A stretch of 33,761 nt of DNA from the NCBI GenBank assembly GCA_030626405.1, contig DAOUPA010000009.1, forward strand, positions 1-33,761. Direction: 5' to 3'. Made by a program: the position numbers and the translations under genes. Below, in pieces: positions 3,816 through 20,622 of this stretch. Each line of letters starts with the position of its first letter. Position 1 is the stretch's first letter. Below the pieces are notes generated by a model. It made no database searches. It saw only the letters and a program-made list of their open reading frames with translations, and was not told the origin of the DNA. This DNA is from Planctomicrobium sp. GTDB taxonomy: Bacteria > Planctomycetota > Planctomycetia > Planctomycetales > Planctomycetaceae.

Positions 3816-4561
3816 TTGTTCCTCGCAAAATGTCATTACAGTTGACGCCGTTGCTCGACCTGTTATTGATCGTCATCTTCGCTCAATACATGGAGGTGCA
3901 AGAAACGCAAGTCACGATCGTTGAAAAAGCGGCGACAACAACAATCGAACGAGATGCCGCACTTGCAGCTCTGTCTGAGAAAGAAGCAGATTTACAACAG
4001 GTGCAAGATGAACTGAAAACGACGATTCAGCAAGAGCAAGTCATAGCGAGTCTGCTAGTGGACCTCTTTGACGTGCCTGAAGAAGAAGTTCAGGCGATTC
4101 TTGATAAAAACGTTCCACCGGGCGGGCGAACAGCGATGGAAATCGAACGCCTGAAAGAACGATTCAAGCAAACAACAGTCGAGCAATCGGGTCGAGTAAT
4201 TGAACACCTGCTTACGTATGACGAAATTCGTAAACGCTGCGACATCTGGGATGTCCATGTCACTCCGCAAAATTTCCTGACTCTCTCAAGTGGTGACAAA
4301 ACGTTACAGATACAAATTCCACTTGATATTGATGAAGAATTCGTACAGCAAACATTTGTCGAAAAATTCATCGAAACAGCACATACACTTCCAGAACCGA
4401 AAAGCTTAGTCATTACGATGTTAACTTATGACCGTCGGTCACAGCGATGGGCAGTTCAAGGAGTGCGTGAGGCACTTCCTCAAATTTCCCTCAGATTGAA
4501 CTCAGAAAGTGATGCTCGCACTCGTTATGATTACGCAGATCTCGGTTTTCGAATTGAATAA
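3812..4561 (+). CDS. ExbD/TolR-like stator partner with coiled-coil periplasmic part
   Basis: The N-terminus MIVPRKMSLQLTPLLDLLL is a short cytoplasmic piece followed by one membrane helix carrying a single Asp (about residue 17), as in ExbD/TolR and MotB, where this Asp is the proton carrier. After the helix there is a charged coiled coil (about 35-80) and then an alpha/beta domain with no peptidoglycan-binding OmpA signature that I can see. The start codon overlaps the stop of the ExbB-like gene (ATGA), so the two are almost certainly co-translated. At 249 residues it is longer than a typical ExbD. Confidence 0.75.
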   Translation: MIVPRKMSLQLTPLLDLLLIVIFAQYMEVQETQVTIVEKAATTTIERDAALAALSEKEADLQQVQDELKTTIQQEQVIASLLVDLFDVPEEEVQAILDKNVPPGGRTAMEIERLKERFKQTTVEQSGRVIEHLLTYDEIRKRCDIWDVHVTPQNFLTLSSGDKTLQIQIPLDIDEEFVQQTFVEKFIETAHTLPEPKSLVITMLTYDRRSQRWAVQGVREALPQISLRLNSESDARTRYDYADLGFRIE

Positions 4562-15776: not shown

Positions 15777-17102
15777 CTACCAGCGAATCTTTTCATAGAT
15801 CGAGAGTAATTTTGCTCCGCGCGCTGGATTCAACTGCTTCACATGGGCGATCCGCCCACGTAGATGAGAAGCGAAATCGGGGAGCTTGTCCCGATTCTGA
15901 GTTTGTGGACCGAGCTTCATGCAATTGTGAAGGATCGCTTTCAATCGATCATAATCTTGCCGCGAGATATTCACTTTTTCATTCACGACAACACCTGTGA
16001 CGCACTGTCTTTGGCTGTTGCGAATGATTTTTCTCTTCCGCTTGTTCGCGCTGAATCGTTCACTGGTAATGATTTTGTTTGTCAGCGGAATAAAGTCGTT
16101 CAACGCCGGAATCGAAAGCCCAGGGCCGGAGAATGTGAGGTCGTCGGCGTAACGTGTGTATTTCAGGTTGTAGGCTTTTGCGAGTCCAGAGAGGCGCACA
16201 TCCAAGCCAAAGGCAGAGAGGTTCGCAATCGCCGGAGAAGTCGGTGCTCCCTGTGGCAGGTGGTGCGTCATGAACTGCCAGAGTTCCCAGTTATTGATTG
16301 GAGTATCAAGCCCCCAGGGAGGAGCCGAAGTGGTGAGCCGTGCCAGCCAGATACTGACTTCCCGGCTAAATCCCAGGCTGCGGAAGATCGCCACAACGCG
16401 AGAATACTTGACAGACGGGTAGAAACTTTCCAGGTCCTGCTTGAGAATAAACTTGCTTCCGACGTGAGGGGCAGCATTTGTCACGATGGATCGACCGCGC
16501 AGAAATCCATGGGCCGCAGGATGGGCGGGGACCAGATCGAGAATTTCGTGCAGGATTTGATGCTGAACGGCTTTGAGTTCTTGCTTAGGAGCTTCAATCA
16601 GTCGCCAGCCGCCAGAGCGTTTCTTCTTCCAGATGAAATGATAGTGCGCATCGTGTTCATCTTTGGGGCGATTCCCCTCACGCATACGATGCGTCAGCCA
16701 GACCAGTCTGCCGAGGGGAATGCCCAGCCATGCAGCAAGATCATCAGGAGTCTTTAAGTTTGGCAACCCATAGTATTCGAGCCAGCGCGGGTCAGCGTCT
16801 TGACTCAGGTCGAGAAACTGTCCACTCCGAGGTGAACAACTTGCGAAGAGATAGGGTTTGGTGGGGACAATTTCCCGGCTTATTGGCGTCTGAATCGAAT
16901 TGGGACGATATTCCAGTGGCCGTAGGGAAACTTTCGGTCGAACTTTTCGCTCTCGATAATCACGCGACCGGGTAGAAGACCGGGGCGTTTGTTGTCCGTA
17001 AGCAGTTGTTTCTATCTCGGAAGCAGGAGATTGGTGATCACTTGCGGCAGAACCGCTCGAAGAGCCGCCGAAGACGCCACGGATGAAATCAAACAATCCC
17101 AT
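15777..17102 (-). CDS. Retron reverse transcriptase with N-terminal extension
   Basis: 441 residues. RT motifs in order: RLIEAPKQELKAVQHQIL (167-184), GFLRGRSIVTNAAPHVG (199-215) with the retron-specific NAxxH (N209-H213), KQDLESFYPSV with catalytic D223, LPQGAPTSPAIANL (282-295), YTRYADDLTFSG with D320/D321, and CVTGVVVNEKVNISR with the retron VTG motif (368-370). NAxxH and VTG separate retron RTs from group II intron and DGR enzymes. Residues 1-115 are a low-complexity Ser/Arg/Pro-rich extension, reminiscent of the longer N-termini of myxobacterial retron RTs. The RT uses the RNA at 17158-17321 as primer and template to make branched msDNA. Start: ATG 17102, 55 bases after a2. No effector fusion or clear effector gene. 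Confidence 0.95.
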   Translation of the reverse strand: MGLFDFIRGVFGGSSSGSAASDHQSPASEIETTAYGQQTPRSSTRSRDYRERKVRPKVSLRPLEYRPNSIQTPISREIVPTKPYLFASCSPRSGQFLDLSQDADPRWLEYYGLPNLKTPDDLAAWLGIPLGRLVWLTHRMREGNRPKDEHDAHYHFIWKKKRSGGWRLIEAPKQELKAVQHQILHEILDLVPAHPAAHGFLRGRSIVTNAAPHVGSKFILKQDLESFYPSVKYSRVVAIFRSLGFSREVSIWLARLTTSAPPWGLDTPINNWELWQFMTHHLPQGAPTSPAIANLSAFGLDVRLSGLAKAYNLKYTRYADDLTFSGPGLSIPALNDFIPLTNKIITSERFSANKRKRKIIRNSQRQCVTGVVVNEKVNISRQDYDRLKAILHNCMKLGPQTQNRDKLPDFASHLRGRIAHVKQLNPARGAKLLSIYEKIRW

Positions 17103-17157
17103 ATTTCAGTGGCTTCCAGGCAATGGCAAACGTTCGAGTATTTTCAACGTCAAAAAA

Positions 17158-17179
17158 TGATGACCCGTGGGCTGCACAA
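17158..17179 (-). repeat. Retron a2 inverted repeat
   Basis: On the minus strand this is the 3' end of the retron RNA. Its 22 bases pair with a1 at 17300-17321 along the full length: 19 Watson-Crick pairs and three G-U wobbles. In retrons this stem brings the priming guanosine next to the template 3' region. Confidence 0.9.
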
Positions 17180-17192
17180 CGCATCCTGTGGC

Positions 17193-17234
17193 GAGAGAAC
17201 GGCACGGGAACTAGGCTTGCCGTGCCGTTCTCTC
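17193..17234 (-). repeat. msd hairpin (perfect 15-bp inverted repeat)
   Basis: GAGAGAACGGCACGG at 17193-17207 and its exact reverse complement at 17220-17234 flank a 12-nt loop, GAACTAGGCTTG on the plus strand. After reverse transcription this becomes the long stem of the msDNA. Confidence 0.95.
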
Positions 17235-17299
17235 ATCCATCGAATCTCGAACAACGTTTCTCCCATGGGGTAACCCCACAGTGTCCTTGCGGACCAAGC

Positions 17300-17321
17300 T
17301 TGTGCAACCCACAGGCCATCA
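17300..17321 (-). repeat. Retron a1 inverted repeat
   Basis: This is the 5' partner of a2 (17158-17179). The pairing stops exactly at the A of the AGC whose G (17299) is the expected 2'-OH branch point. The three non-identical positions are all G-U compatible, as expected for an RNA stem rather than a DNA repeat. Confidence 0.9.
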
Positions 17322-17332
17322 ACGTACTCTTG

Positions 17333-17362
17333 ATTATGATTCGGCCTGTAGTGATCCGTCAA
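17333..17362 (-). promoter_or_regulatory. Sigma-70-like promoter of the retron RNA
   Basis: On the minus strand TTGACG (17362-17357), an 18-base spacer and CATAAT (17338-17333) match the -35/-10 consensus at 5/6 each. The expected start, about 7 bases downstream (17325-17328), falls a few bases before a1, where a retron transcript should begin. Confidence 0.7.
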
Positions 17363-20233: not shown

Positions 20234-20622
20234 TTCCTGAACTCTCTATCTGCCATAATCGGTATAGTCGATGTCAATTCACACGGACTGTGAAGCATCA
20301 TTGAAAGTCGAGTACTTCTGTCTCCACTCTGGTCAAAGAATGCCGAAAACTGTCGATAAGGAAGGATCATTGCGAAAGGTGTTCCTGTACAATCGACTCT
20401 GTTCAACGAGTTTTGATGTGATTTTTCGCTCTACTTGTTGACAGTAGGAATTGTGCGTTCGTAGTATCGGCAGTCAGATCATTTCCCTTACGTCGTCGTA
20501 TTCTCAAAACGACTACCGGAAGGTTAAGAGGTTTCCCCTCAAAAGCTTTCGGATCCGTTGATCGTTTTGAGAGTGTTTTCAAGATATTTTCGTCCAGTCA
20601 ATTGATCCGGAATACTTCTGGT
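20234..20622 (+). other. Intergenic leader upstream of the coiled-coil gene pair
   Basis: This 389-base gap holds a good promoter (20438-20467) and so a predicted leader of about 150 bases before ATG 20623. A short GAGGTTTCCCCTC repeat near 20528 is the only structure seen. No riboswitch or RNA gene is recognised. Confidence 0.4.
20438..20467 (+). promoter_or_regulatory. Sigma-70-like promoter
   Basis: TTGACA (20438-20443), an 18-base spacer, then TAGTAT (20462-20467). The -35 is a perfect consensus and the -10 matches 4/6. It probably drives the genes at 20623-22419. Confidence 0.55.

Follow-up and report, generated by a model that had tools for sequence, protein, structure and literature searches.

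The window, a 33,761-nucleotide stretch of DNA from Planctomicrobium sp., almost certainly contains a retron locus as judged from its sequence, in which an msr-msd RNA gene is followed on the same strand by the gene for a retron reverse transcriptase (RT). That this retron makes msDNA is highly probable. The current view of most retrons is that they are patchily distributed tripartite toxin systems; the novelty of this locus lies in combining, at the scale of a family, mostly vertical inheritance, the lack of a linked effector and an RNA family supported by covariance. On balance we favor the reading that the locus is a linked RNA-RT retron which would produce branched msDNA, bears a hydrophobic helix that would tether it to a membrane, is inherited mostly vertically, and acts either as a guard with its effector elsewhere in the genome or by some activity at the membrane. 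Four points go beyond the first-pass annotation of this DNA: that inheritance is vertical, that no effector is linked, that the RT begins with a hydrophobic helix and that the msd hairpin is hypervariable. The features of the locus are as follows.

17357..17362 (-): -35-like hexamer TTGACG, read directly
17333..17338 (-): -10-like hexamer CATAAT, after an 18-nt spacer
17158-17321 (-): msr-msd RNA gene, with a retron RNA fold
17300..17321 (-): a1 arm, 22-bp pairing with a2; the helix covaries over 100 homologues
17299 (-): predicted branch guanosine in an A-AGC context after a1, read directly
17283..17294 (-): msr hairpin 1, GTCC-GCAA-GGAC, of varying length among relatives
17263..17281 (-): msr hairpin 2, CUGUGGGG-UUA-CCCCAUGG (GGGG-TTA-CCCC), best conserved of all parts of the RNA
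17180..17250 (-): predicted reverse-transcribed region (msd), placed from retron architecture, with an approximate outer limit
17193..17234 (-): msd hairpin, arms 17234-17220 and 17207-17193, 15 bp, loop of 12 nt
17158..17179 (-): a2 arm, partner of a1
15777..17102 (-): retron RT, 441 aa, motifs NAxPH, QGAPTSP, YADD and VTG
17067..17102 (-): hydrophobic helix at the RT N-terminus, MGLFDFIRGVFG, conserved in 77 homologues with a start assigned partly by this motif

The msr-msd RNA and its reverse transcriptase

The coordinates and strand given for the RNA parts in the first-pass annotation proved exact to the base. A pairing check returned the 22-bp a1/a2 stem with three G-U wobbles that it had described (19 Watson-Crick pairs and 3 G-U; 17321-17300 against 17179-17158), the AGC at the end of a1 and its branch G could be read directly at the claimed position, the msd hairpin is the perfect 15-bp helix it was said to be, and the ATG of the RT gene at 17102 lies the expected 55 nt past a2. 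Of the three msr hairpins proposed, the GCAA hairpin and the GGGG-TTA-CCCC hairpin are supported, while the third is a 3-bp helix present in the MFE structure only and missing from the centroid and the RNAalifold consensus, leaving two. Folding of 17125-17330, a check the annotation had called for, gave -102.3 kcal/mol; 200 shuffles averaged -65.9 (z = -8.4), and none of them folded as well. Rfam contained no match to this RNA at gathering thresholds, and a single chance-level one at a permissive threshold.

The RNA structure is directly supported by its homologues. A MAFFT alignment of 30 sequences yielded a consensus of 34 pairs, from which a covariance model was built, and 24 of these 34 pairs show double changes. 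When 100 RNAs were aligned by fitting to the model, a procedure biased toward the structure, 95.9% of cells pair, double-change cells that keep their pair number 514 compared with 135 in shuffles, and pairing drops to ~40% if the partner is slid by one to three columns; the MAFFT alignment of 30, which is independent of model fitting, gives the same answer on covariation. Covariation in the a1/a2 and msd stems among homologues had been set in advance as a test and was strongly passed, and the excess of compensated double changes bears out the view, first based on G-U compensation, that this is a functional RNA. In msr hairpin 2, 98.8% of cells are paired across the 100 aligned RNAs and both sides have changed in 4 of 8 pairs. 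The A, A and G of the AAGC branch context are each conserved in at least 90% of 30 sequences, and the msd hairpin is hypervariable in sequence with its structure kept.

A promoter-like pair, TTGACG-N18-CATAAT (17362-17333), precedes the RNA gene and predicts a start at ~17326, at the foot of a1. Of 99 homologous loci, 73% have a pair resembling TTGACA/TATAAT just 5' of a1, compared with 3.6% of shuffled controls.

PADLOC, NCBIfam and PDB matches agree that the downstream protein is a retron RT. The best PADLOC profiles are RT_other (423 bits) and RT_outgroup (399 bits), followed by RT_XIII (353 bits), NCBIfam likewise assigns a retron RT, and the PDB matches are retron RTs with the Ec86 RT first (1e-37). 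RT_other/RT_outgroup is a catch-all without a defined effector; the planctomycete group is set apart by a covarying RNA family and synteny. The retron RT clade has regions X (NAxxH) and Y (VTG) along with YADD: across 21 homologues YADD, QGA-SP and the N-A-H of the X region are invariant, and the VTG of the Y region is nearly so. The conserved, covarying RNA with its msr-msd parts lies beside the RT. Pfam detected RVT_1 only, with no known effector domain fused to the RT.

The N-termini of these RTs form a distinct extension. The 77 homologues start with a short hydrophobic helix, consensus MGLFDFLRRLFG (MGLFDFL..LF), which is followed by a P/S/R-rich linker; about 17 RTs were left without such a start assigned, and since start codons were picked partly by motif, the apparent conservation is inflated. 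Mean hydrophobicity of the helix is 0.95 and its moment 0.57, versus 0.36 and 0.30 for random 11-mers from the RT core. Two relatives, L099 and L100, have longer hydrophobic stretches in place of the MGLFDFL-type helix. In the window RT a low-complexity linker runs from the helix to about residue 80, and an AF2 model from 8 sequences, which is poor (mean pLDDT 57), places a helix at residues 3-11 and disorder after it. The helix and the disordered basic linker suggest that the RT is tethered to the membrane. An RT from Phycisphaerae that is 39% identical (L010) is encoded by an ORF that also begins MGLFDFIRSLFGG, followed by a zinc-ribbon-like pair of CxxC motifs.

We infer msDNA synthesis along the following lines. 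A promoter of its own would drive transcription of the RNA from a1 onward; the RT would bind the msr and prime from the 2'-OH of G17299; and copying of the template would begin at about 17180 and run through the 15-bp hairpin to yield a branched msDNA of roughly 60-75 nt. The RT-msDNA complex would probably be held at the membrane by the N-terminal hydrophobic helix.

Distribution and inheritance of the element

Linkage of the RNA to the RT and the distribution of the pair were observed directly. Of the 170 genomes of the family, 108 gave a match to the covariance model (87 of the 130 good ones), spread over 43 of 58 genera; two weak matches (G249 and G271) represent a second RT lineage at 44-46% identity, and with these set aside the RNA of the window-RT lineage is found in about 106 of the 170. 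An RT lies just downstream of 94 of 100 RNAs. Most genera of the family have an orthologous RT with at least ~50% identity, and the regions upstream of these RTs fold alike. Genomes with the element have one copy; some genera, such as g53, lack it altogether, as does nearly all of g42. In genus g4, the RNA and RT are on different contigs in all three genomes (G008, G276 and G277; loci L103, L153 and L156 with L102).

Within a sample of the phylum, the covariance search limited the RNA to the same family and, weakly, to family f54, where a same-shaped RNA precedes the RT at two loci (L202 and L203) and the RT has MGLGFL..LFGG near its start. No description of a planctomycete retron RNA was found in the open literature searched, the main retron surveys lying outside that search. 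As far as searched, the covarying RNA family and its synteny are specific to planctomycetes.

Several genera share a gene order in which a divergent M50 protease gene is followed by the RNA, the RT and a membrane protein that we call cluster 1. Both flanking genes belong to the core. Seven genomes without the RT were examined, and in them M50 lies next to cluster 1 with a gap of roughly 200-300 bp, an empty site that by itself cannot tell insertion from loss. In the window's genus the element has a different position, flanked by genes for an ECF sigma factor and a DoxX-like protein. RT and rpoB trees compared over 29 genomes gave a Mantel r of 0.445 (1 of 5000) and shared 8 of 26 splits versus 0.2 expected at random, and each of three strong conflicts involved a single RT clade with G033. 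This agreement is far above chance yet incomplete, indicating that inheritance is mostly vertical with some transfer. Among RT pairs with finite dS, dN/dS was 0.02-0.19 in all but one (0.27 in L082/L088), and by these ratios the RT is under strong purifying selection. Phages and plasmids held only distant relatives of the RT, with <45% identity among those listed.

Myxobacteria aside, this family is a second natural setting in which retron roles beyond simple toxin guarding can be tested on a large scale. Several of its genera include genomes in one contig, relatives with the empty site can serve as controls, genus g4 separates the RNA from the RT, and msd hairpins have been swapped naturally while the msr stayed constant.

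Replacement of the msd hairpin

Comparisons within genera separate the two halves of the RNA. In g56 the msr has a mean within-genus identity of 0.92 and the msd hairpin one of 0.55, with shuffled hairpins at 0.48; in g1 the two values are 0.87 and 0.60. The window and its relative L071 share 90% identity in the RT and 96% in the msr compared with 48% in the msd, which is at about the shuffled level. Between L150 and L152, 28% of fourfold sites differ, compared with nearly half of msd positions. The hairpin remains 36-41 nt long throughout. At one locus (L021; G040:C274:3932-4082 and 4251-4401), two tandem msr-msd genes lie upstream of one RT, and their msr parts are near-identical while their msd hairpins are unrelated. 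By these comparisons, several genera have swapped the msd hairpin wholesale and kept an almost unchanged msr. A phage origin of the window hairpin was tested by searching viral contigs for a 20-mer from the window msd, and the result was negative.

Such rapid swaps in some lineages fit an antagonist, such as a phage factor, that reads or cleaves the hairpin. Unlike g56 and g1, g38 has a conserved msd, so an arms-race reading would not be general. The natural swaps on a constant msr show that a different msd hairpin can be accommodated, a property of interest where retrons are used to produce DNA.

Effector, function and related retrons

The absence of a linked effector was directly observed. 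Among the window genes tested, none beside the RT matched a PADLOC effector, and over 40 loci no co-travelling gene was common to different contexts; the locus thus lacks the linked or fused effector gene that characterizes tripartite types I-XIII. JetC-type matches to a coiled-coil-like protein at 20602 were weak and unconvincing. Because there is no dedicated neighboring effector, the retron would act as a guard through an effector encoded elsewhere, which is the most likely course, or through an activity at the membrane. By analogy, a guard with an unlinked effector is the most economical function, and our confidence in it is evenly balanced. Retrons without an apparent effector are known as single cases, such as Retron-Bth1 (PMC12548924).

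We give limited credence to a related possibility, that a membrane-tethered, effector-free and near-core retron of this family works by means of msDNA and RT, with or without host proteins encoded elsewhere, its msd being swapped under attack by an antagonist. The main rival to the unlinked-effector guard is a domesticated housekeeping role, in which the msDNA would have a normal planctomycete function (in DNA repair, in stress or in DNA work at the membrane) instead of one in phage defense. We regard this as rather unlikely, although the element's presence in most genera of the family, its mostly vertical and strongly purified inheritance, its single copy per genome and the lack of a linked toxin all speak for it. 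Wholesale msd swaps in several genera would be odd for a housekeeping nucleic acid, and the clean absence from g53 and nearly all of g42 indicates that the element is not essential.

A precedent for vertical inheritance, which also favors a housekeeping role, comes from myxobacterial retrons, found in 27 of 28 strains tested (PMC6868368). The window element resembles Mx162/Sa163 (Retron-Mxa1 and Retron-Sau1) in the extended RT N-terminus, vertical inheritance, wide spread within its group and AGC-type branch site (PMC6868368). It differs in phylum and in msDNA length, which is 162 nt in the myxobacterial case versus the 60-75 nt predicted here. Mx162 is probably the nearest precedent by likeness of described traits.

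A tripartite retron with cluster 1 or the window's DoxX-like membrane protein as effector is improbable. In 14 loci from several genera, cluster 1 directly follows the RT on the same strand, and the RT itself has a membrane-anchored look. Against this, cluster 1 is found in 147 of the 170 genomes, also in genera that lack the RT, and many RT-positive genomes, the window's included, have it at an unlinked position. As it is core with or without the RT, we rejected cluster 1 as the effector and consider it a neighbor; the DoxX-like gene was seen in the window's genus only, and neither protein matches PADLOC. A selfish or decaying retroelement without host function is very improbable, since movement of the RNA-RT unit between sites and the tandem RNAs of G040 are outweighed by dN/dS values under 0.2 for almost all pairs, conservation of the catalytic motifs, a covarying RNA, a kept promoter, one copy per genome and no high-identity RT among the phage and plasmid sequences listed.

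Related RTs with upstream msr-msd-like RNA were also seen in Arthrobacter (L009 and L011) and Tsukamurella (L211), the RT of the latter being flanked by polA and rpsA, without an evident effector. These RNAs, like those of other planctomycete relatives, have a comparable msr hairpin, and the form GGGG-NTA-CCCC is common to Arthrobacter and planctomycetes. The genome of the window encodes two further retron RTs. One (L205; G000:C37) is of type XIII (RT_XIII, 531 bits) and has a 17-bp a1/a2 of its own and two large same-strand genes, one with a SWIM-like C-terminus, neighbors of a kind that the window element lacks; this RT ends in KKKPWWKFW, a possible C-terminal membrane tail. The other (L204; G000:C451) is a second RT_other-type RT (439 bits), ~40% identical to that of the window and preceded by an RNA of similar architecture.
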